64,000 bases of DNA, from the NCBI GenBank assembly GCA_015179045.1, contig WHUZ01000008.1:248001-312000 (forward strand). Reading direction: 5' to 3'. Position 1 is the first letter of the stretch. Every line of letters begins with the position of its first letter. This DNA is from Kalaharituber pfeilii (lineage: Eukaryota; Ascomycota; Pezizomycetes; Pezizales; Pezizaceae). Made by a program: the position numbers and the translations under genes. Shown here in pieces: positions 5,605 to 56,619 of the stretch. The notes below the pieces were generated by a model. That model did no database searches. It saw nothing but the letters and a program-made list of their open reading frames with translations, and was not told where the DNA came from.

Positions 5605-5990
5605 CAAAAAAGACAAAGAATCTGCCTGGCCAGTTCGTGAACCGCAATGTTTGTTCTTCATCCCACCTTCAAGGCATAGAACAATTCTCGAGGATGTCTA
5701 CCTCTGCATCGTTCTCCTGCCTCTCCACCGACTCCTCTTGCTCCACATCTTCCCATCTTTCCCACCCTAGGGCAGTCTCCTTCTTCACATCTGAGGGCCA
5801 GATGGTCCGCAGTAGTCTTTCCCACGCCCTGCCTTGGCGAACAGCTGCATGCGGGGTCACATGAAAAAAAAATGAAAAAAAAAAAAAAAAGTCTTTCCCA
5901 CACATTCCGCCTCTCTCCTGCCGATTCTCTCTCCCCAGTCTTTCATCATACTCAGGCCTATTCCAAGCCTCATGAAAGTTGTGGCCGCTC
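5605..5990 (-). pseudogene. Probable degraded LINE ORF2 C-terminus
   Basis: Minus-strand frames read WERLLRTIWPSDVKKE and WERWEDVEQEE, resembling the Trp/Glu-rich C-terminal end of lineage-B ORF2 (EWGDMEKNWKRT). It is interrupted by the hairpin-only insertion at 5826-5889. No finger or RNase H motif remains, so the assignment is tentative. Confidence 0.35.
5826..5889 (+). mobile_element. Hairpin-only insertion, lineage B
   Basis: TSD AGTCTTTCCCAC (5814-5825 and 5890-5901). The insert is the hairpin GCCCTGCCTTGGCGAACAGC plus TGCATGCGGGGTCACATGA and an A-tract: 64 bp. Confidence 0.9.
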
Positions 5991-6173
5991 TACTGAAGCC
6001 TCCTGAGGGCAGCCCCTCGCTACTACCTGCGGTCCGGTACTCCTAACGTGAGGGTGCTAGCGAGCTTTAACATATTGTTACTAGTAAAATAATCACTACT
6101 ATGATGCTAGAGCTGTGATCAAAGGATATTAAAGTAATTGCCACCCTCGGGACAATCATATGGATTACCAAAT

Positions 6174-6231
6174 ACCCTGCCATGGCCAAGTGCTACAAGC
6201 GGGGTTATGTGATTAAAAAAAAAAAAAAAAA
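6174..6231 (+). mobile_element. Hairpin-only insertion, lineage B
   Basis: TSD ATGGATTACCAAAT (6160-6173 and 6232-6245), a perfect 14-bp duplication around ACCCTGCCATGG ... GCGGGGTTATGTGATT plus about 18 A. Confidence 0.95.
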
Positions 6232-6278
6232 ATGGATTACCAAATTGTGGAAGTTCGGTAATTAGCACTCAGTGAGGA

Positions 6279-6279
<1 letters not shown>

Positions 6280-6314
<35 letters not shown>
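6280..6314 (+). mobile_element. Poly-A-only insertion with 13-bp TSD
   Basis: ACTCAGTGAGGAT occurs at 6267-6279 and 6315-6327. Between the copies lies only AT followed by about 33 A. It has the structure of a target-primed insertion in which nothing but the tail was copied. Confidence 0.85.
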
Positions 6315-6318
<4 letters not shown>

Positions 6319-6392
6319 AGTGAGGATGTGGAGTGGTAGTGGGTTAGTTTTTTAGCCCAGTCCTGCTTGACTATTGCGAGGGCTATCGAGTG

Positions 6393-7455
6393 TTTTTTTT
6401 TTTTTTTTTTTTTTTAATTTCACGTAACCCCGCTTGCAGCTGTTCGCCATGGCAGGGTCCCTAGACCGAAGCCCGGAGACAGGCACCTGTGCAACTACCT
6501 ACAAAATCATCCCCTGTAAAAGCACACAACAATACCACGACTTCGGTGATGCAGAGGAAACACAAAGCGAAAGCCCAATCCCCCAAGAGAACAATCAAGC
6601 ACAAATACCTAAATATCCTCCCAGAAAATCAAGCAGTCATGTCCATCTCCTCCACATCCCTCCCCTTCCCCTTTCTGTCCACCTTTGTAATTCTATCCCA
6701 GTCATACAGGCACGAATCGTACCACTTGCCTGACAACCTTACCTTCGCTAGTGTTTAGCTATCCAATTCCACCTCCCCCTCCAGGTAGATCACAACCGAG
6801 CTAGCCTTCTTTCCCTCCCTCCTCTCTTTCTTCACCAACCATCTTGCCGCAGCAATCTTTCCCATCCATGGGTTCGCATTCTCCATCCAATCTCTTACTT
6901 TCCCGAGTTTCTTTGTCACCGCAATTCCATGTACTACGATCGCACGACCGGATTGCGGGAGTGTCCTTTCCTTTGGGGTTGGCTTCGGAGATGGCTTTTT
7001 TTTATTATTTCAGTACTCGCGTGCCGCCCTAGGGGCTATGGTGGGGGTTTATTGTAAATGAGAAAAGAAAAGAAATAACTAGATACATGTATTTCCCGCG
7101 GTGCTCATACGTGATGCGGGTGGAAAGTTAAAACTTGTACCGAGCCTGTCTATTTCCTTCCTCTGTCCGGCTCGTACACAGTCGTCCGCAACCGTCTTCC
7201 CCCGAGTCTCACTTTCCCAACGTCCTTCTTACACTCTAGGTATAACACCACCGAGCTTGTCTGCTTTCCTTCCTCCATCAGGGTGGTCTTCTTCCGCAGC
7301 CTTCGGAGATGGTGCTGGAGATGGTTTCTTGGACATTTTCTGCTTAGGAGGACTAGTACTCTGCCCCCCTTTCACTTTTTTGGACTGGAAAGCAGTGGAC
7401 TTTGTTCGGCATTTGGGTGGTGCCACTGGAGGTCGGTCAGAATTGTCCCCTTCCG
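6393..7455 (-). mobile_element. ORF1-only LINE-like element, lineage-B tail
   Basis: TSD GGGCTATCGAGTG (6380-6392 and 7456-7468). After removing the nested insertion at 6995-7300 and its TSD, the minus strand encodes an ORF1/Gag-like protein. It has a basic, Ser/Pro-rich N-terminal part (STSPPKQKMSKKPSPAPS) followed by AIVVHGIAVTKKLGKVRDW ... GKKASSVVIYLEGEVEL, the conserved C-terminal block of fungal LINE ORF1. A ~300-bp non-coding 3' region leads straight to the lineage-B hairpin and poly-T. No RT, endonuclease or RNase H sequence is present. The 5' end is probably truncated. Confidence 0.75.
6995..7300 (-). mobile_element. ORF1-type 3' fragment with lineage-A tail, nested
   Basis: TSD CTTCGGAGATGG (6983-6994 and 7301-7312) inside the element 6393-7455. 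The minus strand reads QTSSVVLYLECKKDVGKV then VRLGGRRLRTTVYEPDRGRK and stop, and then the same 3' UTR as the ORF1-only element at 25191-26882 (TTTCCACCCGCATCACGTA ... ACCGCGGGAAATACA), ending in a lineage-A hairpin. Thus an A-tailed ORF1 element jumped into a B-tailed one. Confidence 0.85.
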
Positions 7456-7468
7456 GGGCTATCGAGTG

Positions 7469-7834
7469 GTTACCTACAGTATGTCAAAGGGAAAGGAAAA
7501 GGAAAAGCACAATCGTTGCGAACTACTCTTCTCTGCTCTCCTCCACCACAACCTCTAAAATGACCAAACATTCAGTGGATGGCCGCAGGTGGCACCTTCT
7601 TCGTTTGGTAGCAAAAGAAATAGAAGTACCACCAGCAAGCAAATGAATCACCCTTCCAGTACTCCATACGCTTTACAGTAGTAGAATAAATTTACAGGAT
7701 TAAATCAACCAGCCAGGCGCTGGCCACCATATGCACCAAGAGTCATCCACCACCGACATCGATTTAGAACTTCATCCTGTCTTGGCTCTCCTAACTTGCA
7801 CTATCTCCAGGTACCGAGCACCTGTCCTCTCCCT
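7469..7834. other. 3' flank of membrane-protein gene copy 1; no other gene seen
   Basis: Non-coding between the LINE TSD and the stop codon of the minus-strand gene. No poly-A signal could be singled out. Confidence 0.3.
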
Positions 7835-8945
7835 CTATCCAGCTAACTCCACAGGAACTGGGGTCGCGGAAAGGTCAGCCTTGTACACTGGCACTTCCTC
7901 CCTGGGGTTCCTCATCAGGTCCTCCGCTGCCAATTCTGCACCATGGGGCCCAGCAGTTGAGGGCCCTGAATTTGGACCGTTCGAACCTAACAGTGACGAA
8001 CCTAGATGGCCAATGTCTTGAAAATGTGACGGCAAAGCAGCTATTCTCCGCTTGCGTTGCCTCCAGATTCTAATGCTCATAGCAATGAGCAGGACTCCGA
8101 TGAGTGAAGAGACGCCCACGATTGCTGCCAGAGCGCCTTTCGTGAGGCAACTGCCGCCTGGAAGATTCTTGTTGCTCTGGTAGGCCCAAATTCAGCTTTG
8201 GAAGGTATGTCGAAACCCTGACATTGGCGTCTCCACCGTCCACATCAGAAGCGCCAATACTGTTGATCGTAGTGATAACCACTATATCAAAGTCTATAGT
8301 ACTGGTGGCGATATTGATGGTCCGTAAATTAGAGGCAGAAGTATTGGTGACGATTGTGGTGATCGCCTCTACAGTGGAGGCGGCGGTACTGTCGAAGATA
8401 GTGATGGTGGTATCCTCGGCAGTCCCCATCGTACCGCCGCGCACCAGGCGACGACAATGCCCTCCTGGATACCCTTGCCTTCGTCGTCAGCGCAGAACCT
8501 GTAGCAGTCAAGGGCTATCCTTGCAGTGTCACATTTGCACTGGTAGTCAGTCCCTGAACATTGCTCAAACTTCCTGTTGGCATTCCTAAGGCAAAGGTCC
8601 GAGCTGGCTTGCGCGTTGCACTGGTTAGGATTGGGCCCGAGGCTTATCTCTGCAGCAAACGCAGCATGAACTGTTTGCGTTCTGCCGTCTTGCTTGGTCG
8701 TATAAGCGAACGAGACAGACGTTGGGAGTGAGGTAACATCGTTAGTGATGGTGAGGACGCTGGGCTGATTTTGGACGTAGCTAACACACGATGGACGAGG
8801 AAGGCAGGAGAAGCCACTACGTAATCAGAATATACCAATAGGAGGTTTATGTCAGTTCAAATATAAGAATTCCGTGCATTCTTAGCGCAGCTGCATTCCA
8901 TCCGAAGAAACATTGAGGGCGAACAGCTCCAAATGCGACTTACAT

Positions 8946-9008
8946 TTTTTTTTTTTATTTTTTTTTATTTCACGTGACCCCACATGCAGCTGTCCGCCAA
9001 GGCAGGGC
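8946..9008 (-). mobile_element. Hairpin-only insertion, lineage B, in an intron
   Basis: TSD ATGCGACTTACAT (8933-8945 and 9009-9021) duplicates the minus-strand 5' splice site GTAAGT, so two identical donors flank the insert. Poly-T, then TTTCACGTGACCCC, TGCAGCTGTCCGCC and AAGGCAGGG. Confidence 0.95.
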
Positions 9009-9320
9009 ATGCGACTTACATCGGGCAACAGCCGAACCCGTATCCAACCTCTTGCAAATACAATGCCTCCTTACTGAAGTTGTCGCCCTCATGCTCACAT
9101 AGAGTGTACGACGTTGGGCATGCGGTTGCCGTCCTCACAACTTCGCAGCAGCCTATTTCGCTGTGAACGATGATGCATTCATTGAAATTGGAAATGGTGC
9201 ACAGGCGAGTTGTCCGAGTTGGCATTCGTGGCTTGATCTCTTTATGCGCAGTGCAGAAGATCAGAGAGCTTGAGAGTCCGCACGAAAATGACTGATTGGA
9301 GGGTCCTAATGTCCGTATGG

Positions 9321-9595
9321 TCCGACCCGGGTCGGGGAAAAAATTTGCAGGTTGCGAGGGTGTGGAGAAAACTGCGAAGGTGTGGAGAAGAGGGGAGGGG
9401 GGAGAGGGGGAGATATATAGTGGAGCCTCCTGTGGCAGAACCGGAAGGACCGTCCGGAGGTTTCTGGAATCCGGTTTTAGAAGTAGATAGAAATTTCTTT
9501 GTTTGTTAAGCCTGTCTCCGGGCTTCGAGGGCTTGCCCAGGGACCCTGCCATCTGCAAGCAGAGTTATGTGATATTAAAAAAAAAAAAAAAAAAA
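9321..9595 (+). mobile_element. Lineage-B LINE 3'-UTR fragment
   Basis: A 275-bp insertion with TSD AATGTCCGTATGG (9308-9320 and 9596-9608), splitting the signal-peptide exon of the membrane gene. It contains the B 3' UTR (CCTGTCTCCGGGCTTCGAGG, then GCTTGCCCAGGGA) and a hairpin that has lost its loop (CCCTGCCATCTGCAAGC), then poly-A. Confidence 0.9.
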
Positions 9596-9714
9596 AATGT
9601 CCGTATGGTGGTTTTGGGGCGTTCACCTGACGAGTTGTGGATTGTTGCTTGCCAATGTATCGCCGAGCTGATCAGGAATGCAATAATGCTCACCAGCAAG
9701 GGCTTGTGTGAATT

Positions 9715-9766
9715 TTTTTTTTTTTTATCACGTGACCCCGCTTGTAGCTGTTCGCCATGGCAGGGC
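9715..9766 (-). mobile_element. Hairpin-only insertion, lineage B
   Basis: TSD GGCTTGTGTGAATT (9701-9714 and 9767-9780), a perfect 14-bp duplication; poly-T, ATCACGTGACCCCGC, TTGTAGCTGTTCGCC, ATGGCAGGGC. It lies at the start of the signal-peptide exon of membrane gene copy 1. Confidence 0.95.
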
Positions 9767-9792
9767 GGCTTGTGTGAATTCAGCGCGACCTA

Positions 9793-10147
9793 TGGGCTAT
9801 GGCGAGTGTGAAGGCGTGGAGGAAGGAGAGGAGAGAGGTGGAGAGGAGAGAGGAAGGAGAGGAGAGAGGAAGGGGAGGAGAGAGGTGGAGAGATGTGGGA
9901 AGGAGAAAGTCATGGAGTGGAAGAGGGGAGCATCGCGCTTCCCGATGCAGAAACCAGAAGGACCGTCCGGAAGGTTCTGGAATCAGGTTCTAGAAGGGGA
10001 GAGGAGGGTGGAGCGGCGATGTGTATGTAGAACTTTCTTTGTTAACCCTGTCTCCGGGCTTGGAGGGCTTGCCCAGGGACCCTGCCATGGCTTAGCGCTA
10101 CAAGCGGGGTTACGTGATTTAAAGAAAAAAAAAAAAAAAAAAAAAAA
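9793..10147 (+). mobile_element. Lineage-B LINE 3' fragment
   Basis: A purine-rich (GAGAGGTGGAGAGG-type) segment followed by the B 3' UTR, CCTGTCTCCGGGCTTGGAGG, the hairpin CCCTGCCATGGCTTAGCGC ... GCGGGGTTACGTGA and poly-A. A clear TSD was not found. Confidence 0.7.
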
Positions 10148-10638
10148 GGAGCGAGACCTGCATTCCGAGCGGACCCTCAAAAAGATCTAGCGGTGGACTA
10201 GTGGGCCTTGGTAGCTGCAAGGAAGCCTGAAAACCTCTGGGTGGTCCTGAATCCAACATGCCAACCAGGCCGGTCCAGGTCAACCAGGCCATTTACGTAA
10301 ATTCAAGCGATTTTAGAATTTATCCCAGATGGATTAGATTTTAATAGTCCTGTATATTTCCACTATCAGTAATTGACAGTCGCCCATTAGGTATCATCAT
10401 CGAAGAATTGAGTCCCGTCTGTTGTATTGTCTGGAAGGTCCATCATTTCTAAAATATTTGTTAGTATATATACTTGAATATAAAGTGTGATACATACCTT
10501 TTTCTTTTTTGTTAAGCAAACATGCTCTCACGCAATACATGCTGTCATGCAACATAAAATATATACTGTAAAAAAACGTCGAGTGATATGGTACAAAACC
10601 TCTCGGGGCAGGCACTTTCTGCCTGTACGCACACTGGC
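10148..10638. other. No gene recognised
   Basis: Contains GGCC-rich words (CCAGGCCGGTCCAGG, about 10266-10290) like those in the hAT-type element at 16574. CCTCTCGGGGCAGGCA ... TTTCTGCCTG at about 10600-10627 resembles the terminus of the MULE at 45803. Both are single ends without partners here. Confidence 0.35.
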
Positions 10639-14311: not shown

Positions 14312-14344
14312 GGTCGGGCGGGTCGGGTTGCGGGTTACCCGACC

Positions 14345-15150: not shown

Positions 15151-15154
15151 TAAT

Positions 15155-15729: not shown

Positions 15730-15792
15730 GCCCTGCCATGGCGAATAGCTGCATGCGGGGTCATGTGAAAGAAAAAAAAAAAAAAAGAAAAA
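15730..15792 (+). mobile_element. Hairpin-only insertion, lineage B
   Basis: TSD AACCTAATCAACTG (15716-15729 and 15793-15806); GCCCTGCCATGGCGAATAGC, TGCATGCGGGGTCATGTGA and an A-rich tail. Confidence 0.95.
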
Positions 15793-15919
15793 AACCTAAT
15801 CAACTGTATCGGGAAGGTTGGAGAAAAGATAATGGCCAGCAGGCTTCAGAAGAAAGACTACCTCTTTCACAGGCTGCAGCTTGGAACCTGGAAAGGAAGG
15901 AATGCGATCTCGGTAATAA

Positions 15920-24519: not shown

Positions 24520-24581
24520 TTTTTTTTTTTTTTTTTTTTACATCACATAACCCCGCTTGCAGCGCCCAGCCATGGCAGGAT
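24520..24581 (-). mobile_element. Hairpin-only insertion, lineage B
   Basis: TSD TCCGCAACCACAAT (24506-24519 and 24582-24595); poly-T, CATCACATAACCCCGC, TTGCAGCGCCCAGCC and ATGGCAGGA. Confidence 0.95.
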
Positions 24582-29464: not shown

Positions 29465-29859
29465 TTTTTTTTTTTTTTTTTATATATATTTAATCGTTTG
29501 CCGCCCTAGGGGCTATGACGATATTTTTAAGTACATTAGGAATAGAGAGAAATAACAGCTACGGAATGGGGAATAAGATAGTAGAGAGGAATGGAAAAGG
29601 AAAAACTGAAATCCTGCCGCCTCTTCCTTCCCTTTTGTCTTTTCAAAAATGTCGTTGAGCCCAGTCCATAAGCTTTTTTTTTTTTTTTTTTTTTAATATC
29701 ATTACTCGCATGCCGCCCTCCGGGCTATGGCGAGGGTCCATAAGCTTGTTGATGTCGGTTTCTTTTGCGGGTCTGAGGAGTTCCTCCTCGCCTCCGGGGC
29801 ATTTGGTCTTCCAGATCCTGCATTTCTGCAATAGGTGTGCGGTGATCCTCCTCCTCGCT
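29465..29859 (-). mobile_element. Lineage-A LINE 3' fragment
   Basis: TSD GGAAGTTTAAGTT (29452-29464 and 29860-29872) in the gypsy relic. Tail hairpin ATCGTTTGCCGCC / GGCTATGACGAT shows a paired change (GC to AT-type) against the usual ATCGC / GCGAT. The coding part keeps CRIWKTKCPGGEEELLRP. It is interrupted by a hairpin-only insertion. Confidence 0.9.
29676..29735 (-). mobile_element. Hairpin-only insertion, lineage A
   Basis: TSD GTCCATAAGCTT (29664-29675 and 29736-29747); 60 bp of poly-T and ACTCGCATGCCGCCC / CCGGGCTATGGCGAG. Confidence 0.95.
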
Positions 29860-30443: not shown

Positions 30444-30509
30444 TTTTTTTTTTTTTTTTTTTTTTTATATCATTAATCGCATGCCGCCCTACGGGCTATG
30501 GCGATGAGT
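30444..30509 (-). mobile_element. Hairpin-only insertion, lineage A
   Basis: TSD ATTCTGAGGT (30434-30443 and 30510-30519) splits the gypsy integrase between QFTSE and the next helix; poly-T, ATCGCATGCCGCCC / GGGCTATGGCGATG. Confidence 0.95.
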
Positions 30510-33720: not shown

Positions 33721-33781
33721 TTTTTTTTTTTGTTTTTTTTCACGTGACCCCGCTTGTAGCTGTTCGCCATGGCAGGGCCGT
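33721..33781 (-). mobile_element. Hairpin-only insertion, lineage B
   Basis: TSD TGGACATGTT (33711-33720 and 33782-33791); poly-T with one G, TCACGTGACCCCGC, TTGTAGCTGTTCGCC, ATGGCAGGG. A second, older plus-strand copy (CTGCCATGGCGAACAGC, TGCATGGGGTCACGTGA) lies 30 bp upstream at 33648-33695. Confidence 0.9.
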
Positions 33782-34461: not shown

Positions 34462-34525
34462 TTTTTTTTTTTTTTTTTTTTTTTAATCACATAACCCCGC
34501 TTGTAGCACTTGGCCATGGCAGGGT
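34462..34525 (-). mobile_element. Hairpin-only insertion, lineage B
   Basis: TSD TGAACCTTCGTCAT (34448-34461 and 34526-34539); poly-T, AATCACATAACCCCGC, TTGTAGCACTTGGCC, ATGGCAGGG. Confidence 0.95.
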
Positions 34526-34779: not shown

Positions 34780-36014
34780 TCTCACTATCAGGAGATGAAG
34801 CATAACGAGTTCAATTTGACAGGTACAGCCGCAGCTTTCCATAGCACAATAGTAACAGAGTGAGCTGAATTTAACAGGTATAAGAGTACAATTTGACTGG
34901 TATTCGATGGCACGAGATGCAGCTGAACAAGTCAAATTTGACAGGTATGGTAGGTCCATTTCACCTCGCGAGATACAGCAGAATGAGCTGAATTTGATAG
35001 GCACTTTGACAGGCACGACAGCTCCTCAATGGTGTGAGGTGCAGCAGAACGAGTCAAATTTGACAGGTATGGTAGGTCCATTTCACCCCGCGAGATGCAG
35101 CAAAATGAGCCGAATTTGACAGGTACTTTGACAGGCACAACAGCTCCTCAATTTGACAGGCATGACAGCTCTTCAATTTGACAGGTATGATAGCTCCTCA
35201 ATTTAACAGGCACGACAGCTCCTCAATTTGACAGGCGCGACAGCTCCTCAATTTGACAGGCACGACAGCTCCTCAATGGTGTGAGATGCAGTAGAACGAG
35301 TCAAATGTGATAGGTATGGTAGGTCTATTTCACCTCACGAGATACAGCAGAATGAGCCGAATTTGACAGGCACTTTGACAGGCACCGCAGCTCCTCAATT
35401 TAACAGGCACGACAGCTCCTCAATTCGACAGGCACGGCAGCTCCTCAATGGTGTGAGATGCAGCAGAACGAGTCAAATTGACAGGTATAGTAGGTCCATT
35501 TCACCCCGCGAGATGCCGCAAAATGAGCCAAATTTGACAGGCACTTTGACAGGCATGACAGCTCCTCAATTTGACAAGCACGACAGCTCCTCAATAGTGC
35601 GACATGCAGCAGAACGAGTCAAATGTGATAGGTATGGTAGGTCTATTTTACCTCGCAAGATGCAGCAAAATGAGCCGAATTTTACAGGAACTTTACAGGT
35701 ATGATAGCTCCTCAATGGTGAGATGCAGCAGAATGAGCCGAATTTAATAGGTATAACAGTCTTCCTCGATGGCGTAAGATGTGGTCAAGTTGACAGATAT
35801 GACCTTGACAGGGAAAAATGAGGCAGAATAAGCCCAATTTAACAGGTATGACAGCTTTCTCTCAATGGCGCGAGATGTGGCCGAATGAGCTCAAGTTGAC
35901 AAGTATTACAGGACTCTTTCCATAGCGTAAGAGCAGCAGAATGAGCTGAATTTGACAGGTATAGTAGGTCTCTCTTGCCCTGCCATGGCGAGCAGCTGCA
36001 AGCGGAGTTACGGG

Positions 36015-36051
<37 letters not shown>

Positions 36052-38862: not shown

Positions 38863-38931
38863 TTTTTTTTACTACCAACTAACCCCACTTGTCGCTGCTC
38901 ACCCACTTGTCGCTGCTCACTATGGCAGGGC
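38863..38931 (-). mobile_element. Hairpin insertion, lineage B, with internal duplication
   Basis: Flanks ATCAACTACACTT (38850-38862) and ATCACCTACACTT (38932-38944). Poly-T, ACTAACCCCACTTGTCGC, then CCCACTTGTCGCTGCTCA present twice, ending TATGGCAGGGC. Confidence 0.75.
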
Positions 38932-40563: not shown

Positions 40564-42163
40564 CGGGATGACTCGGGACAGGTACTTTTTACCTGTCCGC
40601 TCAGGGACAGGTAGTTCCTTGTACGGTAAGCGGATCGCCAGTGGCGTGCGCTAATATGCAGAGTTTCCAAGGTGTGCGGGATGACTCGGGACAGGTAGTT
40701 CCTTGTACGGTAAGCAGATCGCCAGTGGCGTGCGCTAATATGCAGAGTTTCCAAGGGTGGCGACCTCGCATGTACCGGAGTACAACTTCATGTATATCGA
40801 AGATATTGGTTGCTACCCACTCACAGCTTTTCTCTTTCGCCTCTGCTGTCGCAGAATCATTTACTAGTTACCACTTGATAGCCAGGACTTTCAATAAACC
40901 CAACTGCCACTACCCCCGAAGTTAGCCATACATCCATTAAGTCTACCAGTAATACAGACCATTTATTATGTACTTGTGTTGTTGCTGCGTCCTACTATAG
41001 TAAATGGCTGAATAATAAGTAAAAAAAGCTGTTACCGCAATTTTGTAAATACTTGGCTGAAGAACTTTAATAGTATATAAGGCTCTTGAAAACTGTTCTG
41101 GCATATATTTTCTGCTTATTCAATAACTTGCCATGCCCACTCTCACTCAGATTACCTAACTTTTAGCATTACCTATCATCTCGGTCTTATTCTTCTTACC
41201 AATACCTATCTCCTATGCATATCTTTTTATACCTAAATAGGCAATATTAGATATGATATTCCTGAACTTCATTGAAGTACTCCAATCACTGAAGAGCAGT
41301 ACGCTTTTATTAATGATGTATTACATCGTCTTCAAGACTATGCATCAGTTACTGGATTTGTAGTTGTTGTTTATGAAAATCAACAGATTCCTCTTTAGCT
41401 TCTCCATCCACACTAGCAAATCAAATGTCCAATAGCACCCATAAAATAGACAATGACCGACAGAGAAGTACCTCCAGATCTACCTATTACAATACCTCAA
41501 CAGCAGCCACAGGACCAATATACTAACCAAGGCTGACATCTCCTTCTACAATCATTATATGACCAAGAACAGTTATATGGTACCCTTACTGGTGAGAAGG
41601 CATCGCCATAGCCCTATGGGTGGCAAGCGATCAATGATATTAGAAAGAAAAAAAAAAATAGTGAGAAGGCAAAGCTTTTTGCATGTTTGTAGCATACTCA
41701 TACCAGCCACACGCAATGAATGTTCACCAGCACACCTGCTAGTCATGGTGCTCAGTCAATTATCTAGCAATTTGTACCACCAGCTTCAAATCAATTTCGT
41801 CAGAAAAAGACCAAGGGAAAAGCTAAAGTGCATGCTATGACCTCTGCTGAGTTGGCTGAATGAACAGCTGCTGCAAGAAATACTAGAAAGCGCCATAGAG
41901 AAGGCTCCTCAGGTGTAGTTGAGCTTGAAGAGGATACGCAAGCTACGCAGGATATTCTTGTTGCATCAAGGTCCCATGTATCTTCCACTGCACCTATTTA
42001 GATGTTCAGGTATTGTACATAATATCTTGGCTTAGGTACCTCTGAATCGTAACCCTTGAAAACTTCTGCATATTAGGGCACGCCACTGGCGATCCGCTTA
42101 CCGTACAAGGAACTACCTGTCCCTGAGCGGACAGGTAAAAAGTACCTGTCCGGAGTCATCCCG
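40564..42163 (+). mobile_element. MULE-type element without DDE core (no. 1)
   Basis: A 1600-bp element with ~105-bp terminal inverted repeats starting CGGGATGACTC and a 9-bp TSD GTGTGACCT (40555-40563 and 42164-42172). The left TIR is followed by a second, partial tandem TIR copy (40679-40760). The interior has a FAR1-like start (PITEEQYAFINDVLHRLQDY, ASVTGFVVVVYENQQIPL, about 41285-41398) and a C-terminal tail (KKTKGKAKVHAMTSAELAE, ARNTRKRHREGSSGVVELEE, 41805-41960). The DDE region is absent, the same arrangement as MULE no. 3. Confidence 0.9.
41603..41660 (+). mobile_element. Hairpin-only insertion, lineage A
   Basis: TSD GTGAGAAGGCA (41592-41602 and 41661-41671), inside MULE no. 1; TCGCCATAGCCC / GGGTGGCAAGCGA and an A-rich tail. 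Confidence 0.9.
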
Positions 42164-43917: not shown

Positions 43918-43984
43918 TTTTTTTTTTTATTTTTTTTTCATTTCACGTGACCCCGCATGCGGCTGTTGGCCATGGCAGGACAGC
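43918..43984 (-). mobile_element. Hairpin-only insertion, lineage B
   Basis: TSD GCTTTGTCCGAG (43906-43917 and 43985-43996); poly-T, TTTCACGTGACCCCGC, ATGCGGCTGTTGGCC, ATGGCAGGACA. Confidence 0.95.
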
Positions 43985-44930: not shown

Positions 44931-46719
44931 TGCTTGATCGTGCTCACATTCCTTAGATATGAATTCAAATCCTCAGTCTCTGGCTCTTGTTTTTGCATAT
45001 TTATAGGGCCGGCGTCCCATACTACTTCCACGAGATACATCCTTAACGGTCTTTGTTGCTTGCCTGACAATTAGCCAAACACTTCGACTCTAGAACTTTT
45101 GTCCTTAATGGAAGCTCGTGTGACATCGATGTCAACTTGTGAGCCTGATTCAAGGCTCCTGTCAACAGAACTCGTACCTCTCACCGTCACAAATCCAACT
45201 TTTCAAGTCCCCACAGCCATTGCCCTCCCAAGTGTGCAACAGACCAGTCAGTTTCTGATAGTTCTTCCACTAGGGGTTGAACCTACGGGGATCCTTTGCA
45301 GGTGAATATATCGATTATCTACTGAATGCAAATTTGTTCATAATTATCGGGTACTTCTATGCTAACAACGAATATACATAGCCGGGCGGTGTCAGGAGGG
45401 CTTGAAGTCTTTTCGGACAACTTTCCAACTGGGCTGGAGGACCAGCAGGCTTCCACAACATTTCTATCTTATACGCCCAACCAGCATACCTGCTACCAGC
45501 TCCCGACTTTAGCCAATGGTCAGTTACCGGAATATGACACGATCAGTATCGGCAACACCGGAACCACCGACCACTCGTTCCACCACATGTTTTCGGCACT
45601 ATCTCAACCTTGTACACAAGTCGTCAATAGCCCTATTGGCTATACAATTGATGAGAGCCAGGAGGGTACTGAGGGGGACCCCACTTGCATCATGGATCCA
45701 AGCACGTACTTGGACTGGCAGGAGTCACAGCCCATGTTCAATCCTGATGCGGCTTCCGCTTCTCAACCATCTCAAGGAATGTTCTGGATGCCTCCAAATG
45801 TTCGGAACCTCTCCGGACAGGCAGATTCTGCCTGCGGCTCCCGGACCTCATCAGACGATAAACTTTTACGCCATGACCCTGTGAGACAGGTACCAACATT
45901 GCGGAATAGTAGATCGATCGATTGTTGGTACTCGTACAATACTCAGCGATCTAAGACCACACCTTCTATGAATACAGCAGGGCAAATGCTTGCAAATATT
46001 CGAGCAGGCTTAACAGAGGCTGGATTTCATTACCGATCTCGATACTCCTATACCCAAGAGGATGGTACTTCAGTTCCACAATCGCGACAACTAGAGCAAC
46101 TCTTTTTCTGCACAGACGATCAAATTAAGCTTGCTCGCAGATTTGTTTCTCAATTTGTAATGCAAATTGATGCTACATTTTCTACTAATATATTAAAGCT
46201 ACCTCTTTCTAGCTGTATCGGCATAACTAATACTGGTCTTACATTTCCCTTACATTTCCATTTGCTTTGTCATTTATTCGCGCGGAGAGTAAAGAGGCAT
46301 TTGATTTTATTTTTGACTGTTTGGATGAACTTTTCTGGGTTGATGGCAGTGCTAGACCTCGGGTTATTTTAGCTAATCAAGCAGCTGGGCTCCTGGCTTC
46401 CTTTCAACTACGTTTTAGGGATAGTTCTGTCCTACATCAACTGTGTGAGTGGCATGCAGCTGAAAACATCAAAGCGCGTCTCACCAACTCAGGCCGCTAT
46501 GGCAAGACAGTTCGTAATATCTTAGGCAACTACATTTGGAGATACATCAAAGCGTCAACAGTGGAAGCACTAGATGAGGCACGAAAAGAGCTCCTAGACC
46601 AGCTTTACGATCCCGAAAAGGAGTATCTACGTATACATTGGATTCCTAAAGAAGTACAATTCTGCCGCGCTTATACAACTACCTATCCAAATCTTGGCTG
46701 TTTTTCAACTCAACGTACC

Positions 46720-46732
46720 AAAAAAAAAAAAA
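46720..46732 (+). mobile_element. Poly-A-only insertion with 12-bp TSD
   Basis: ACTCAACGTACC at 46708-46719 and 46733-46744 flanks 13 A and nothing else, interrupting STQRTESYH of the transposase. Confidence 0.8.
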
Positions 46733-46757
46733 ACTCAACGTACCGAAAGTTATCATC

Positions 46758-46814
46758 ACATCGCCATAGCCCTTAGGGCGGCATGCGATTAATGAAATAA
46801 AAAAAAAAAAAAAA
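46758..46814 (+). mobile_element. Hairpin-only insertion, lineage A
   Basis: TSD GAAAGTTATCATC (46745-46757 and 46815-46827), beginning one base after the TSD of the neighbouring poly-A insertion; ATCGCCATAGCCC / GGGCGGCATGCGAT, then AATGAAATA and about 18 A. Confidence 0.95.
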
Positions 46815-47168
46815 GAAAGTTATCATCGCCCACTCAAAGAAGGCCTTAATATGCAACTTAGTTTAGAGGCAGCAGTTAAAGCATTAACAGCCCATGTTAA
46901 GCTATTAGCACAGAAGGTTGATGAGGCAGAACGTGATAGTCGAACGAAAATTCCTATTGGAATTGATCAAAAGATATTTAGTGCTTTATTGCATAATCTT
47001 TATTTGCTTTAAATCTTTTGCGTATTGAATGGGCAAAAGCACCAATAAATTCGGATTCTCAAACTGATTGCAGATGTAGTATTACCTATCAATATGAGCT
47101 TCCATGTCACCACAAGCTCAGGCCTTTGTTTGAATTGCAGACACCAATTCCAATTACTTCAATTCATT

Positions 47169-47355: not shown

Positions 47356-47359
<4 letters not shown>

Positions 47360-48775: not shown

Positions 48776-48779
48776 AATT

Positions 48780-49127: not shown

Positions 49128-50366
49128 TTTTTCTGTCTAGTACAATTTTGTCTAGGTACTGTAAATGCATGCCAAGACATCAATGAAAAACTCAAGGTGC
49201 CATTAATCAACCACAATGTCTTTCCAGTGTAAATAGAGGGACTAATAACCCTATATTTATTTCCCCTGAAGAGCGCATACGAAATTCTATTCTGGTGGTT
49301 GAGATATATGTTGTCGTGCCCGGTCAGTTTTGGTGTGAAAGGTGCGTCGGGGCGTGGTGCACGTCGGGTTGTGGTGAAAGATGGTGTAAGGTTGATCTTG
49401 ACTTGGGGTTCGCAGACGTTGAGACAAGGTTTAACGTGGGATTGCGCGATGTCTAACCAGTATAAGTTGGTACATCGCCAAAAGAATAGTACAAGGTGTA
49501 AATTATATCCTAACATGAGAACTTCATGCCCAACGAACGTAGCTGATTTTCCAGACCAAGATTCTTTGTCCTTCGTCCCAGGATCGATTCCTGCAGCAAC
49601 CACAAGACACTATTCTCAGATGCTGAGATTCTCCGATTTGTCAGTATATCAACCACTACTACAAAGGTAAGCTTCTTGTCCACATATATCGTATGAATTT
49701 TGATGTTTTTTTTTTTTTTTTTTCTTTTTCACGTGACCCCGCGCGCAGCTGCTCTCCAAGGCAGGGCATGAATTTTGATGTAATGCTGCTGGAGTCAAAG
49801 AAAATCACCTTCTATCATTGTCGCTTATTTTGAAGGGCCTATACTCTTGAAACAAGTAGTTAAGACAGCTTCTTTCAATTCGTCGTCGGTATGAGCGGAG
49901 ACATTTCGGCGTAGATACAAGGAAGATGACATTCTCAAATTTTGAGTTGAGGCTAGATATGCAAATTACAAGATATGCAGTATTTTGATTCTACTCCATT
50001 CGTTCTCTAACCTCTTTTGTTTGTCTGAAAATTTTCTGTGAATCTACAATCTGGCGGAGGAGGGGCAGTTTCAGCTTTGAGAATTTGGAGCTGGGGTTGC
50101 AAATTTTTATGCGATTCTAGCGCTGATAAGATTTGGGGTCTGTGAGCTGCCATAGCCGGCGTGAGAAATTCCGTGCTTTGCAATTAGGACGTGTCGATGA
50201 CTAGTTAGTCATCATACCAAGTAATACTATTGTGAAAGAATATTAAATAACATAGGGTGAGTCTCATGCCAAGACCTATTTCGACTTCTCTGTGATTTTG
50301 ATCACGTAATCCCGCATACAGCTGTCAGCCTATAGCAGGACATTGTGACGTCTCTTGTTTTCTTAA
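49128..50366. other. No gene recognised
   Basis: The 169-codon minus frame 49094-49603 shows no domain and overlaps the Tc1 terminus, so I do not support it. An eroded lineage-B hairpin (CACGTAATCCCGC, ATACAGCTGTCAGCCTATAG) lies at 50310-50340. Confidence 0.35.
49707..49767 (-). mobile_element. Hairpin-only insertion, lineage B
   Basis: TSD ATGAATTTTGATGT (49693-49706 and 49768-49781); poly-T, TTCACGTGACCCCGC, GCGCAGCTGCTCTCC, AAGGCAGGGC. Confidence 0.95.
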
Positions 50367-50525
50367 CTTTCAGGGAGATCTTTTTTTTTTTTTTTTTTTT
50401 ATTTCATTAATCGCATGCCGCCCTATGGGCTATGGCGATGTTTAGTTACAGTGGTATGATGGAAAAATGATAATGAAAGAGTAAAGAAAAATCGATAATG
50501 AAAGAGTGAAGAAAATTGAACCGTC

Positions 50526-51295
50526 CTATTCCTCCCCCGCCCATTCCAATATTTCCGCCATGTTTGTGTCCTTATCTAACTGTCTTATCACGTCTGCTCC
50601 TCTTGCGGTTTTCCTGTTCCATGCCGAGCAGCTACTCTTTATGTGATCCCAGGTCTCCGGCGCTTCGCCGCACCATCTGCACTCCGGGGAGGTGGCCTTT
50701 CCAATCCTGAATCTCCATTCCTTCAGTCCCTTATTGCCCAATATCCCTGCCATTGTGGCCAGATACCGGCGCTTGTCGACCTTTTGGAGTGGGCGGTAGT
50801 TCAGTCCGGCTTGGTTTCTTTCGGCAGCTCTGGATGCTTTGTATTCTTGTCTTATTCCTGGCTCTGTCACTATCTCGTCTTCGCTTCGCAAGGCAGTGCC
50901 AACTTTCGCCGCTTGGTCCGCCCCCGTGTTGCCTTGTATTCCTTTATGGCTCTTGACCCACATGATCGCAAGGTCTAGATCACCCCTGGCTGCCCTTTCT
51001 TCCCAACGTCTCCTCACCTCGCTGGCGGCTCCGTCGGGTGTGGGGTCGCCTCTCGCTATCTTTTGTAGTTTTGCGATCGCCGTCTGTGAGTCGGTGATTA
51101 CCATCAGCTCGCCTGGCACTTGTAGGGCCTTGCTTATCGCTATGAGCTCTCCATCGTTTACCGTGCTTCTCTTCCCCAGGTAGTAAGACTGTGCAGTGGA
51201 TCGATGGTATACTCCCGCTCCCGTTGTGTCCTCTATCCTGCTCCCGTCCGTATACACCCCTTCCCATCCTTCGTCTGTCTCTCTTTCTATGATAG
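50526..51295 (-). CDS. LINE ORF2 C-terminal part: RNase H and zinc finger (partial)
   Basis: Open on the minus strand from the frame change at about 51290 to 50526. RNase H degrades the RNA strand of the cDNA hybrid; the C-terminal C-x2-C-x8-H-x4-C finger is thought to help nucleic-acid binding. Active-site candidates: Asp of YTDGS, Glu of NDGELIAISKA, Asp of TDSQTAI. The fourth acidic position (usually Glu/Asp in NxEAD) is altered to NTGAD. No own start: it is the downstream part of ORF2. Confidence 0.85.
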
Positions 51296-52078
51296 TTCCC
51301 ATTCGTCCCTGCTCAGGTCGCTCGGTTGTGTGGGGAACGTGTGTAGCGGTAGCGGATTCCGGTGCCTTAGATCTCCTCTCACGTAAGCAGAGTCCATGTC
51401 CGGGCGAAGGATCGGTTCGTGTGGGAATCTCAGTGTTCTGGCTTCTACTCTCTCTCCTTCTCCTGCTACGAAAGTTTCTATCGACTCTAGGTTGACGATC
51501 CCCTCGACTATTGTTCTCCTGGTTCCCCATGGTGCCCCGGTGATGTTTCTCGCTACCGTGTACTGCCATTTCTCTAGCTCCCTTAACTTCTTTCCCGGCG
51601 GAGCCCCTTTCGCATGTCTGAGCCAGGCCCAGCTCCCGTAGGTTGCGATGTTTCTGGCTATGCTGGTGTATAGCTGTCTTCTTTTGCTTGGGGGAATTTT
51701 TGTTAGTCGAGAAGCCGTGTTCCAGGCTGCTTTCCCTAGTCGGAGCCGTTTGACGAAGTGTTCGTTGAACTTTAACTCCCAGTCCACCGTTAGCCCCACT
51801 AGTCTATAGCTCTTCCCCTTTACTCCTATTACCAACGTTTCCGACTTTTGTGGATCTATCTCGAACCCTTCGTCCTTGGCTTCCTGAACTAGTTGCATGC
51901 GGTGTTTCGTTATGTCTTTCCTCAATCGACTTAGTGACTTGTTGGACATCACGCTGTGAAAGTCGTCGACGTATGTCCGTGTGAACTGTCTCTCCTCGGT
52001 CTTCTTGACTAGCGGGGCTACCCCTACCAGAAATAGAACCGGAGACAGAGGGGAACCCTGTGGGACCCCGTCTGTCAT
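51287..52078 (-). CDS. LINE ORF2 reverse transcriptase, C-terminal half (partial)
   Basis: 263 codons from RT motif B through the catalytic YVDD to the connection before RNase H. Motif A is missing through 5' truncation, so the domain cannot be active by itself. Nearly all residues match the copy at 31750-32604, confirming one family. Confidence 0.85.
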   Translation of the reverse strand: MTDGVPQGSPLSPVLFLVGVAPLVKKTEERQFTRTYVDDFHSVMSNKSLSRLRKDITKHRMQLVQEAKDEGFEIDPQKSETLVIGVKGKSYRLVGLTVDWELKFNEHFVKRLRLGKAAWNTASRLTKIPPSKRRQLYTSIARNIATYGSWAWLRHAKGAPPGKKLRELEKWQYTVARNITGAPWGTRRTIVEGIVNLESIETFVAGEGERVEARTLRFPHEPILRPDMDSAYVRGDLRHRNPLPLHTFPTQPSDLSRDEWELS

Positions 52079-52122
52079 CGTGCCGCGTCCTCTGGTTTTC
52101 CCGTCCCACTTTCAGGGAGATC

Positions 52123-52616
52123 AGAAATTCAGTATAAAACTGTTTTGGGCCCTACTGATCCTTCTACCATGTTGTGACGAAATCCAATCTATCATCCCAT
52201 TTACCAGGAATCTATCCGCACTTACACGCCATGCTTCGATCTCACCTGATTCTCGCACATTAGCATTAGCAAACTGGCGGAGTTCCACGAATACGTAGGT
52301 GCGTATATGCGACCTTGTCGCACACTGCAGCTGCCGGAAACGAGAAGTGCGATAGGGATTGCTTAATTGATTAACTACAACTGAACGAGAAATTTGTAGA
52401 GCAAAAAAACCAACGATCTCCTGGTTTGCACTTGATATCCTATGGAATCGGATTGATGAACTCCAGCCTGCCGCCCGCGCATTCTTCCTTCCCAACTTCA
52501 GGGTGTTTCTCTTATCAACTATTTTCGGATCGTGCTGTCTGAAATTTCCATTTTGCTCAGACTCTGTATGACAGATTCATTTACCGAAAAGCCAATTTAA
52601 GCCTATATAGTATATA
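52123..52616. other. No gene recognised
   Basis: Downstream flank of the 52829 gene on the minus strand; a 124-codon minus frame (52121-52495) has no recognisable domain. Confidence 0.3.
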
Positions 52617-52630
52617 CCTAAGACCCGTTT

Positions 52631-52759
52631 TTATTTTTATTTTTTTTTTTTTTTATTTCATTACTCGCATGCCGCCCTAAGGGCTATGGCGAGGTGTAAA
52701 TTAACTAAAGAAAAGAGAGAGCTACCAGTCTAACTACATGTAGTGGGAGGGGTGCCGAG
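52631..52759 (-). mobile_element. Short lineage-A LINE tail insertion
   Basis: 129 bp with TSD CCTAAGACCCGTTT (52617-52630 and 52760-52773): poly-T with interspersed A, hairpin ACTCGCATGCCGCCC / GGGCTATGGCGAG and about 80 bp of 3' UTR. Confidence 0.95.
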
Positions 52760-52828
52760 CCTAAGACCCGTTTGTGCCATCATGTATTCTATGACTTCTG
52801 CAACGGGTAGGTCTGTGAGCATTTCCTC

Positions 52829-53908
52829 TTAACACCAACGGTAATTGGGCATGGAGAGACGTACTCTTTGTCTTTTAGGGCGTAGATGGGCAGCGGTGGA
52901 AACCGTCTCAGGTGGTGCGAACATGAGACTATACCCAACTGGAGCTGGCACTGGTACGAACGTGTGTGCGGCACAAGGGGTATAAGGTATCCACGTTACT
53001 TGATTTTCCTCATCACACTGAGTGGAATTGGGCTGAGGCCCCTTGCCATTGTTCGACCTCTACAATTGCGGAATAAAAATGGTTACTAGTTTAAACAAAT
53101 GTTCTTGACCCAAGCATTTAGTTAAGGAAAGGTATAGCTATATAGCGCACTCACAGCTCTCTTTCCACGAACAGAAACCTGCTTGCTGTGAGCGATATCG
53201 ATTTCTGGATCGCAGATCTCCATTTGCTTCCTGCGTGTGGTAACCTCTTTGCCCTTCTCAGATTGCTCATCCATGCTGGCGAAGTTTTCGGCACGTTCGT
53301 TCACAGGTTTCTTCCTATCTTCAACTTGAATATCAGGCTCCGGCTGTTTAGCAAGGGACATGGTCAATTTTGCAGCGCTGCAGCTATGTGCAGGCATAGG
53401 AGCAGCGCCATAGACAACACATGCCAGAACCTGTTGCGAGTTGGGCACAGTGGTTGCGTCGTAAGCCTCTGCGCTGGGGGCCAGCTTCCAACTCTGGCTG
53501 GTCCATAAGTCCCAAGGATAATCAACTTCCGCAATATCGACAGTGGCGGAATGCCTTTGTACATCAAAGTCCGCATCACATGTATTATTAGCACCCCCAT
53601 TAAGGCAACAAGTTTTCATGATAGTCGCGCAGCTGGTGCACAAACGTTGACAGCTTGGGAAATAGTCTTGATCTTCGAATGCTAGGCCACTGTGTAAGGA
53701 TGGTGAGATGGAGAGGGTGTGTTGCGGTACTAATGTATTGGTGTCGTACTCCTGGCTTTAATCTTTTGTTAGAAGAGCTTACCCACAACACTGTCAAATG
53801 GTACTCACCAGTCGGGATTGAACTGTTTTAACACTTCTTCACTCAGATGGGTAGTGAAACGCATGTTGATGTTAAGGTACTGATAAACATTGTTCCGATG
53901 AGCTTGAT
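52829..53908 (-). CDS. Multi-exon Cys-containing gene of unknown family
   Basis: Minus strand, three exons supported: 53809-53908 (HRNNVYQYLNINMRFTTHLS, EEVLKQFNPD), donor GTGAGT, 53-nt intron with CTAAC branch site; 53155-53755 (QEYDTNTLVPQHTLSISPSL ... FEDQDYFPSCQRLCTSC, MKTCCLNGGANNTCDADFD ... VDYPWDLW ... a charged Lys/Glu-rich region); donor GTGAGTGCGC, 95-nt intron with acceptor TTGTAG; 52829-53059 (QCDEENQVTWIPYTPCAAHT, FVPVPAPVGYSLMFAPPET ... MPNYRWC, stop). Phases match at both introns. Cysteines cluster as C-x3-LC-x2-C-x6-CC-x8-C. The first exon is not located; the frame 53928-54365 upstream may contain it but lacks support. No signal peptide was seen in the known part. Not recognised; no insertions interrupt the exons, so it may be functional. 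Confidence 0.65.
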
Positions 53909-54677
53909 CTAACTTCAAGTCTTTAACTTACTGGGCATACAGATCTCCGATACATACCGTAATTTCGCGATTGAGCAGCCTAAGAGGGCTGGAGTACACT
54001 ATTGCGGTCGTAGAAGGCCTGCAGACTGTGTGAGGGGACAGAGGAGCAGCTTTGACTGGGTGGAGGTGTATCTGGGGTGCAAGGAACCAAGGACGCCGTT
54101 GCTCGAGGACTTTAGCAGCTGGTTGGTACCAAAAGAGGGCAAGATGGACTAGGAGCTTACAGTTGCGGTGAAGACCTTTGTCAAAAAGAGGCAATGGGAG
54201 GAACGTGAAGCTTGGGGCGAAGGATGGGAAACTAACCCTGTCAGGGCGGGCGAAAGATTGTGGTCTTAAACTCTGAGTATTGAACCGAAACCAAAAAAAG
54301 TTATTGTCGTCGTTATTCTCTTCGAGTGGGTGAAGGTGAAGCGTCTTAGACTGAAGAGGGAGCACTCCGAATGTAACGCGCTGTCGTTGGGAGACAGAGT
54401 GAGAGGATATGAAGAGACAGAATCACCGCTCTTTATAGATATTTGATATCCATGCTCTTATATATACATGTCTGTGAATCAGGAAACCGCAGCTTCATTG
54501 CGGAAAAAGCAATTGAAAAAAACAGCACAGCGAATGAATTGCCAGAACGGGCCTTCGCACTTGGCAAGTCATTCGTTGAAATTCACTCTTTCTAGCCAAC
54601 AATTAATTTCCCACATACCTTTTTGGGTTTGGAAGGCTGCAATACTTTATGTAAACACAGAGCTGTAGGTACGCTAG
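53909..54677. other. Upstream region of the 52829 gene
   Basis: Possible promoter and first exon. A 145-codon minus frame (53928-54365) is Pro/Leu/His-rich without domains. TATA-like TTTATAGATA and CTTATATATACATG lie at about 54432-54465 in the expected direction. Confidence 0.3.
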
Positions 54678-56619
54678 CGTGCCCGAAGTGGTAACGATCT
54701 GCCCCCTGTAACGATCCACTCTCTGGGCACTCCTCGTCATGCATTCCTCACTCTACTACTTTTATTTGAATATATTGCAACTATAGAAATTGCTTAACTT
54801 ATACCAATTTGACATCGCTGAATCCGAATTTGCTATCATAATGAGGAAAAAATCAAAATTCCAATATCTACAACTAAATTTATCATTATTTACCTAAGTT
54901 GAGTCCTCCCTGTATATAGTATAGCTCAACATCCTCGAAATCAGGAAAATTAGATAGAAAACTAGTAATTCTCATCTATCTAGGGCTGGTCTTTTTATTA
55001 AAAGTCAATATTGCATATACAGATCCTGTGGGATGCAATGCACCTTCAATTGTATAGAAGTAGTTTATATTCGTGAGCTAATCTCTATACCTTGATCTGA
55101 CCTTCAGTGTTCCTAGACTCCTCAAGTGATTCAGGAATACCAGGACTTGAAGTAGTAGTAGTTGAAGCACTAGGGGTGGTAACAGTAACTCCTTCTGAGG
55201 TGCCAGGTATGACAGAAGAGACCTATGGCTCAAATATGCTATTGGAACCTTCTTCTACCCACCCCCCCTTCTAGTATTCAGACTTTCCTATCTCATGAAC
55301 TAAAGATCTTTCCCAGCCCCAGCCTTGCATGTGAGTTCCTCTATGGTATCTTTTTGTAACTTGTTCAGCTGCAGCCATCTCTCTCTATTTTCGTTCTTCT
55401 TTTGCCTTGCTGTCATGGGTCACCTCGGGTAGGCGATAGAGCGTATATGCGACGTATGCGAAATGCGACAGCAAATATATGGGATGCAGGTGCGTATTGC
55501 TAAATGAGCTATGCAGAGGACTAGTAAACGTCACTAGTCAAGTGTTTTTTCACTGATCTGGTGGGATGCGGTTCTCTACCCAAGACGCCCAAGACGTTAT
55601 ATTCACTCACTTCCTCCTAAGCCGCCTCGAGCTGAAGTTAAAGCAATTCTGGAAATAGAAGGAAAAAATAGTAGGAGATGTCGAAAAGGAAACAGAGAGT
55701 ACCAGCGAAGGTCAGAAAGGAGGAAGAGAAACTTCAGAAGGTGCGAAAATAGTTTAGGATAAGAAAAAAGCCGCTGATATGCAAAGTAGTTAGCAGCGAT
55801 GGATCGAGAAAATAAGGCAAAAGAGGAACGAAAATAGAGAGAGATGGCTGCAGCTGAACAAGTTACAAAAAGATACCATAGAGGAACTCACATGCAAGGC
55901 TGGGGCTGGGAAAGATCTTTAGTTCATGAGATAGGAAAGTCTGAATACTAGAAGGGGGGGTGGGTAGAAGAAGGTTCCAATAGCATATTTGAGCCATAGG
56001 TCTCTTCTGTCATACCTGGCACCTCAGAAGGAGTTACTGTTACCACCCCTAGTGCTTCAACTACTACTACTTACCCTGCCATGGCCAAGTGCTACAAGCG
56101 GGGTTATGTGATTTAAAAAAAAAAAAAAAAAAAACTACTACTACTTCAAGTCCTGGTATTCCTGAATCACTTGAGGAGTCTAGGAACACTGAAGGTCAGA
56201 TCAAGGTATAGAGATTAGCTCACGAATATAAACTACTTCTATACAATTGAAGGTGCATTGCATCCCACAGGATCTGTATATGCAATATTGACTTTTAATA
56301 AAAAGACCAGCCCTAGATAGATGAGAATTACTAGTTTTCTATCTAATTTTCCTGATTTCGAGGATGTTGAGCTATACTATATACAGGGAGGACTCAACTT
56401 AGGTAAATAATGATAAATTTAGTTGTAGATATTGGAATTTTGATTTTTTCCTCATTATGATAGCAAATTCGGATTCAGCGATGTCAAATTGGTATAATGT
56501 TAAGCAATTTCTATAGTTGCAATATATCCAAAATAAGTAGTAGAGCGAGGAATGTATGACGAGGAGTGCCCAGAGAATGGATTGTTACAGGGGGGCAGAT
56601 CGTTACCACTTCGGGCACG
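54678..56619. repeat. 1.9-kb inverted repeat (arms ~730 bp, 405-bp loop)
   Basis: The left arm 54678-55408 and right arm 55814-56619 are near-identical reverse complements; the right arm carries a 61-bp hairpin insertion plus TSD. Outer ends CGTGCCCGAAGTGG / CCACTTCGGGCACG. Differences are few (e.g. TTCTTCTTTTG versus TTCCTCTTTTG). The loop encodes Lys/Arg/Glu-rich peptides on the plus strand but no known domain. No TSD was seen at the outer ends. A transcript through it would fold into a long double strand. Confidence 0.9.
56073..56133 (+). mobile_element. Hairpin-only insertion, lineage B
   Basis: TSD ACTACTACTACTT (56060-56072 and 56134-56146), only in the right arm of the inverted repeat; ACCCTGCCATGGCCAAGTGC, TACAAGCGGGGTTATGTGA and poly-A. 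It post-dates arm duplication. Confidence 0.95.

Follow-up and report, generated by a model that had tools for sequence, protein, structure and literature searches.

Insertions made of a LINE terminal hairpin and a poly(A) tail in the genome of Kalaharituber pfeilii, and a possible origin from shortened LINE RNA

The stretch described here, referred to as the window, is 64 kb of the Kalaharituber pfeilii genome (contig WHUZ01000008.1, designated C339; C339:248001-312000), taken from an assembly of 78 Mb in 360 contigs. It harbors short insertions that consist of the 3’ hairpin of a long interspersed nuclear element (LINE) and an A-tail, and these can be sorted into lineages A and B. A hairpin of approximately 40 nucleotides followed by an A-tail was found at all 18 of the positions listed in the original prediction, and each insert is bounded by a target-site duplication (TSD) of 10 to 15 nucleotides. 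The TSD finder placed the TSD end between −2 and +3 nucleotides from the base of the hairpin in all 18. Both the prediction of at least 18 such inserts between TSDs and that of a 5’ end fixed within 0 to 3 nucleotides of the hairpin base were borne out. The inserts are listed in Table 1, together with poly(A)-only inserts and longer LINE copies. The insert at 38863 contains an 18-nucleotide tandem duplication inside the hairpin. The insert at 35978 and one at C339:56660 are a single hairpin-only insertion, with identical TSDs, in two copies of a repeat, and were counted once. Because both repeat copies carry the same insertion and TSD, the insertion is probably older than the duplication. A MULE transposase fragment (Pfam PF10551) is located at window positions 46231-46776.

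Table 1. Hairpin-only inserts, poly(A)-only inserts, and longer LINE copies in the window. The distance d is the number of nucleotides from the hairpin base (position 1) to the TSD end.
Feature	Remarks	Positions	Strand	TSD	d
Hairpin-only insert, lineage B		5826..5890	+	AGTCTTTCCCAC	0
Hairpin-only insert, lineage B	CCAAGTG subfamily	6174..6232	+	ATGGATTACCAAAT	0
Hairpin-only insert, lineage B		8946..9008	-	ATGTAAGTCGCAT	0
Hairpin-only insert, lineage B		9715..9766	-	AATTCACACAAGCC	0
Hairpin-only insert, lineage B		15730..15794	+	AACCTAATCAACTG	0
Hairpin-only insert, lineage B		24520..24581	-	ATTGTGGTTGCGGA	0
Hairpin-only insert, lineage B	3 extra nt at 5’ junction	33721..33781	-	AACATGTCCA	3
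Hairpin-only insert, lineage B	CCAAGTG subfamily	34462..34525	-	ATGACGAAGGTTCA	0
Hairpin-only insert, lineage B	within repeat array	35978..36048	+	AGTAGGTCTCTCTTG	-1
Hairpin-only insert, lineage B		38863..38931	-	one mismatch	0
Hairpin-only insert, lineage B	3 extra nt at 5’ junction	43918..43984	-	CTCGGACAAAGC	3
Hairpin-only insert, lineage B		49707..49767	-	ACATCAAAATTCAT	0
Hairpin-only insert, lineage B	CCAAGTG subfamily	56073..56133	+	AACTACTACTACTT	0
Hairpin-only insert, lineage A		3142..3192	+	TATCAGTAACA	-1
Hairpin-only insert, lineage A		29676..29735	-	AAGCTTATGGAC	0
Hairpin-only insert, lineage A	3 extra nt at 5’ junction	30444..30509	-	ACCTCAGAAT	3
Hairpin-only insert, lineage A		41603..41658	+	GTGAGAAGGCA	-2
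Hairpin-only insert, lineage A		46758..46817	+	GAAAGTTATCATC	1
Poly(A)-only insert	body 0 nt	46720..46733	+	AACTCAACGTACC	
Poly(A)-only insert	body ‘AT’	6282..6315	+	ACTCAGTGAGGAT	
Poly(A)-only insert	body 5 nt	61434..61461	-	ATTCTATATCC	
Longer 5’-truncated LINE copy, lineage B	internally deleted terminal hairpin	9322..9593 (end approximate)	+	AATGTCCGTATGGT	221
5’-truncated LINE copy, lineage A	ends in A hairpin; Pfam RVT_1, RNase_H	50390..52106	-	present	1667

The distribution of 5’ ends was determined in a sample of 264 kb composed of the window and C339:1-200000, all on one contig. Profile searches returned 160 hairpin matches, of which 148 were retained, and the 140 with a tail and sufficient flanking sequence entered the TSD census. 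The TSD search reached 1,200 nucleotides and used two uniform score cut-offs (at least 11 and at least 9), and 700 draws with swapped flanks served as the control. At a score of at least 11, 72 of the 140 tailed matches have a TSD, and 36 of these end at −2 to +5. Lineage A accounts for 39 (five inside the hairpin, 11 at −2 to +4, none at 5 to 64, and 23 beyond) and lineage B for 33 (two inside the hairpin, 25 at −2 to +5, three at 36 to 38, and three beyond). The control at this cut-off gave three ends at −30 to +5, one at 6 to 64, and seven at 65 to 1,200. Lowering the score to at least 9 raises the number with a TSD to 88 of 140, with zero, three, and 41 control ends in the same three intervals.

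The 88 matches reduce to 84 distinct copies after two duplicated loci were collapsed and two artefactual in-hairpin TSD calls were removed. The rejected calls are of lineage A (window 30727 and C339:109468, both on the minus strand), and in each the repeats are a match to an adjacent hairpin copy. At locus L019 (C339:109370-109468), two lineage A hairpin copies lie back to back, with a longer apical stem in the upstream copy. The same pair of hairpin-ended copies is present at C339:3259-3583 and, in the opposite orientation, at C339:176283-176605; this is apparently a segmental duplication, and the TSD-bearing one was counted once.

Half of the distinct TSD-bearing copies (42 of 84, score of at least 9) end at −2 to +5, while eight end inside the hairpin, four at +6 to +64, and 30 at +65 to +1200. 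The same clean-up at a score of at least 11 leaves 35 at the base, five inside the hairpin, three at 6 to 64, and 25 at 65 to 1,200. The flanking density predicts 1.1 copies in the 8-nucleotide base interval compared with the 42 seen (Poisson tail 1.5e-50). A comparison of 5’ end, length, and TSD with longer LINE copies had been proposed alongside the original prediction, and this excess at the hairpin base is its outcome. Ends inside the hairpin lie on either side of the loop and are not confined to the 3’ arm. Since poly(A)-only and some partial-hairpin inserts occur as well, the spectrum is best described as a spike over a low background.

A scan of A-tracts chosen without regard to hairpins was also performed. 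It covered 206 A-tracts on both strands, and two near an end were skipped. A TSD was found within 300 nucleotides at 58 of the 206, two of the 58 being artefacts produced by matches between adjacent hairpins. An A or B hairpin label is carried by 53 of the 58 inserts; the body is 35 to 49 nucleotides long in 35 inserts, and three inserts have nothing but poly(A). A control with randomly drawn right flanks gave 0 of 408. The hairpin-blind scan yields the same peak at the base.

Seven loci outside the window were inspected, one elsewhere on C339 and six on five other contigs. They are the best matches to a query with a hairpin-only copy and bear on generality, not on frequency. All seven have a TSD at the hairpin. 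The TSD ends exactly at position 1 in four of them, and at −5, −1, and +4 in the others, which have mismatches or short TSDs.

Pattern searches of the whole genome found 783 exact B cores, with AGG 0 to 2 nucleotides upstream in 321. There are 202 TTGG-type B cores compared with 50 preceded by CAGG, which by subtraction leaves 152 without it, and 326 CCAAGTG-type B cores compared with 174 that have the upstream motif. Summed, the LINE upstream motif is kept in 545 of 1,311 exact B hairpins and lost in 766, a figure obtained by subtraction between paired patterns with slightly unlike 3’ ends, and one that scores a LINE with other upstream sequence as motif-less. Among the matches listed (100 of the 174), 90 of 100 motif-keeping CCAAGTG places also have the next 12 upstream nucleotides exactly, and in seven of the other ten the difference is at position 1. 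Because motif-keeping copies mostly retain these 12 nucleotides, the loss of sequence sits at the hairpin base and is not gradual. Exact lineage A cores number 3,155, with long and short copies together, and the 783 B cores are likewise mixed. Reversed-pattern controls gave no matches for any genome-wide pattern search. The 264-kb sample is richer in hairpin repeats than the genome as a whole: four exact cores together have 40 occurrences in it and 4,466 genome-wide, 112 times as many, compared with a length factor of 296. Multiplying the 42 distinct copies by 112 gives a rough estimate of a few thousand hairpin-only inserts genome-wide.

Ordinary random 5’ truncation, given a false peak by a small sample or by TSD detection, would predict dispersed 5’ ends. 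The longer copies do have scattered ends (the 30 copies at 65 to 1,200, of which about eight may be false since the control gives 41 of 700 there at a score of at least 9), but half of all copies fall inside one 8-nucleotide interval. The base peak is kept under a uniform threshold, against swapped-flank controls, and in the hairpin-blind scan, and the genome-wide step between motif-less cores and copies that retain a further 12 nucleotides also stands against random truncation, which is very improbable as an explanation.

The 5’ junction is most precise in lineage B, where 18 of 27 distinct base copies have a d of 0. The LINE upstream sequence was set to TTGCCCAGGG for all 27 copies when run-on was tested. 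In none of the 27 does LINE-templated sequence extend two or more bases beyond position 1, and a single G is present in two. The base preceding position 1 is G in four of the 27. Four copies have 3 to 5 extra nucleotides at the junction, and apart from one G these do not match the LINE sequence upstream. The one-nucleotide 5’ stop in lineage B looks like the result of a polymerase running off the end of its template.

When nine representatives were folded, the predicted structure was a hairpin in two parts, most of them having an internal loop, and position 1 lies inside the predicted stem. Among 50 distinct lineage A sequences, the column pair 2-31 is C-G in 32, A-T in 14, T-G in two, and other in two, and the column pair 14-18 is C-G in 34, T-A in 13, and other in three. 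A third covarying pair (18-32) falls outside the stem. The compensatory changes at two stem pairs point to a conserved stem in the lineage A 3’ hairpin. Support for the lineage B hairpin comes entirely from folding; covariation was dropped there because the covarying columns (1-33, 1-35, 22-33, and 22-35) are not predicted stem pairs.

A general rule that LINE copies start at hairpin bases was not supported, as the 5’ ends of 28 longer copies did no better as hairpin starts than control positions. The mean fraction of controls with a stronger hairpin than that at the 5’ end was 0.43 (Kolmogorov-Smirnov p 0.17). A second hairpin (hairpin 2) was considered as a further stop in a ladder and is at most a minor one. 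In the one subgroup tested, the 7 nucleotides upstream of hairpin 2 are retained in 183 of 203 copies genome-wide, leaving at most 20 of 203 lost there. A further 9 nucleotides past hairpin 2 are present at 99 places, and the bases there vary between copies. Because longer copies show no hairpin preference and the step at hairpin 2 is at most minor in that subgroup, it seems to be the terminal hairpin that is special, with the effect limited to it.

In aligned copies, the short inserts are spread across many hairpin variants of several LINE subfamilies. The 39-nucleotide CCAAGTG hairpin is identical in four short copies and two copies that are long or unresolved, and one TTGG-type hairpin is identical between one short and one long copy. 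Short (43) and long (31) copies have equal medians for TSD (13) and tail (21). The shared hairpins and equal medians fit one type of enzyme acting on the RNAs of several LINE subfamilies, and not one master short interspersed element (SINE). LINE frames in the sample carry reverse transcriptase (RT) and RNase H, and an endonuclease-like frame was noticed by eye alone. Of 23 matches to one such RT frame in a protein search, seven are proteins named Kalaharituber pfeilii. For 5’-junction microhomology, only 16 longer copies have a homologue that reads further upstream, and two of these are one duplicated locus. Hairpin-ended copies of 600 to 940 nucleotides at C339:74578, 172028, 194955, and 182054 had no further-upstream homologue in the sample; they may represent host sequence that was transduced, or belong to rare LINE families.

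The identity of the CCAAGTG hairpin shows that the inserts have a 3’ tail in common with a partner LINE, as SINEs do, but they begin at the hairpin base and have no RNA polymerase III head derived from tRNA, 7SL, or 5S RNA. No tRNA (ARAGORN) and no Rfam match at the gathering threshold was found in the window. Without such a head, and with sequences that track several LINE subfamilies, the inserts are not a classical SINE. A dedicated short gene or transcript, with the inserts forming a genuine family of minimal SINEs that has source loci and a promoter of its own, could account for the high copy number (the exact A and B cores above, long copies included) and for the largely short TTGG-type subfamily, where the upstream motif is missing from 152 of 202 by subtraction. 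It fits poorly with the many hairpin variants among the short copies, some identical to long LINE copies, and with the absence of tRNA and Rfam matches in the window. A body of about 40 nucleotides would also be too short to hold both an A box and a B box, and a G before position 1 in only four of 27 lineage B copies gives no hint of a copied cap. A dedicated transcript is accordingly improbable, and the suggestion of a minimal SINE as a separate replicating family was left unsupported.

Reverse transcriptase travels 3’ to 5’ on its template, so that it meets the 3’ arm of the hairpin first and has opened the stem long before position 1. A stall caused by structure is therefore expected at the 3’ edge of the hairpin or inside it. 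The main class of inserts stops at the 5’ edge, where the stem is already open, and the simplest cause is that the template itself went no further. Judging from sequence, it is more likely than not (we place the likelihood at roughly 0.55) that the template is a 3’ fragment of RNA from the poly(A)-tailed LINEs of this genome, already shortened at its 5’ side to the terminal hairpin’s base and copied by target-primed reverse transcription (TPRT). The original prediction had offered two readings, a systematic halt of the enzyme or a discrete short template. The one-nucleotide precision in lineage B, with no templated run-on of two or more bases in 27 copies, favors the short template, though not in the form of a minimal SINE.

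The proposed pathway begins with a LINE-encoded protein that would bind the terminal hairpin, by analogy with stringent-type LINEs. The ORF2 protein of a zebrafish LINE is reported to bind a comparable 3’ stem-loop (PMC4176376). Decay in the 5’ to 3’ direction, or a cut at the stem base, would then remove the upstream RNA, so that the hairpin and poly(A) remain as a protected stump. A nick would prime synthesis on the poly(A), and the enzyme would copy the hairpin and run off the template at the stem base, which is where the inserts are seen to end. Joining, at times with a few untemplated bases, would produce the observed TSDs of 9 to 15 nucleotides. The longer copies would be made by the same enzyme on intact or randomly shortened RNA.

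The alternative of abortive TPRT holds that the RT anchored at the hairpin is non-processive and drops off once the hairpin is copied, or that the finished cDNA hairpin folds back and comes off the template, with synthesis becoming processive beyond this point. It explains the three poly(A)-only and eight partial-hairpin inserts as a zone of early termination without any special RNA; the few ends that follow at +6 to +64 (four of 84) and the restriction to the terminal hairpin, which suits an anchor, also agree with it. The stem is melted before the enzyme reaches position 1, however, so RNA structure predicts no exact stop there, and none of the 27 lineage B copies overruns it by two or more templated nucleotides. 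Abortive synthesis is considered unlikely, but less so than a dedicated transcript.

Several observations weigh against a shortened template. The 5’ ends of lineage A are less sharp (−2 to +4), and a stump left by an exonuclease might retain a few upstream nucleotides, of which lineage B retains none. The eight partial-hairpin and three poly(A)-only inserts indicate that synthesis or templates also end earlier, and three lineage B copies begin at the base of hairpin 2 (d of 36, 38, and 38), although no clear step emerges there from the genome-wide counts. The motif-less fraction varies among B subfamilies (47%, 59%, and 75%), where a uniform process predicts otherwise. Finally, 52 of the 140 tailed matches have no TSD within 1,200 nucleotides at a score of at least 9. 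Of the 63 matches that lacked a TSD in the first finder, about half, judged by eye, run on into recurrent LINE 3’ sequence, and a few resemble hairpin-only inserts with decayed TSDs.

In mammals, some L1 insertions are empty or nearly so, with a tail between TSDs and little or no body. Three inserts described here are alike, while the main class instead keeps exactly one complete hairpin. The inserts resemble 5’-truncated LINE copies made by TPRT in their intact 3’ end, their A-tail, and a TSD length equal to that of the longer copies in this genome, but their 5’ ends cluster at a single structural point. Truncated LINE copies are named as 100 to 1,000 bp in the review PMC3747384, and the body of about 40 nucleotides is below this range. 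Stringent-type LINE-dependent SINEs (PMC3747384) also have a hairpin and poly(A) tail common to a partner LINE, presumably as a recognition element; the inserts differ from them in being headless, in having no polymerase III promoter that could be found, and in tracking LINE subfamilies. Zebrafish L2 LINEs likewise have a 3’-terminal hairpin adjoining the tail, although that work, in the part available, concerns recognition and not hairpin-only insertions (PMC4176376). In LINE-1 chimeras, recurrent 5S rRNA and U3 breakpoints are read as possible signs of specific RNA cleavage or processing before insertion (PMC13174262). There, foreign RNAs are joined to LINE-1, whereas the inserts described here consist entirely of the LINE’s own 3’ end. 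The literature search yielded no report of hairpin-only insertions, a weak negative as most subscription journals were outside its reach.

A broader proposal, to which we give slightly less than even odds, is that cells process LINE RNA to a stump of the hairpin (about 40 nucleotides) and its poly(A) tail, and that the LINE machinery uses this stump as a major substrate, yielding thousands of headless and promoterless retroposons. If so, these inserts would possibly be the smallest class of retroposon and would record, in the genome, RNA decay that stopped at a bound hairpin. They would give a footprint in the genome, at one-nucleotide resolution in one lineage, of the pieces of LINE RNA present when reverse transcription begins. 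LINE copies may be short because the enzyme falls off or because the template was already shortened, and these causes, difficult to distinguish otherwise, could then be told apart. The recognition hairpin would be enough by itself to form a mobile unit, from which the birth of a SINE could plausibly begin.

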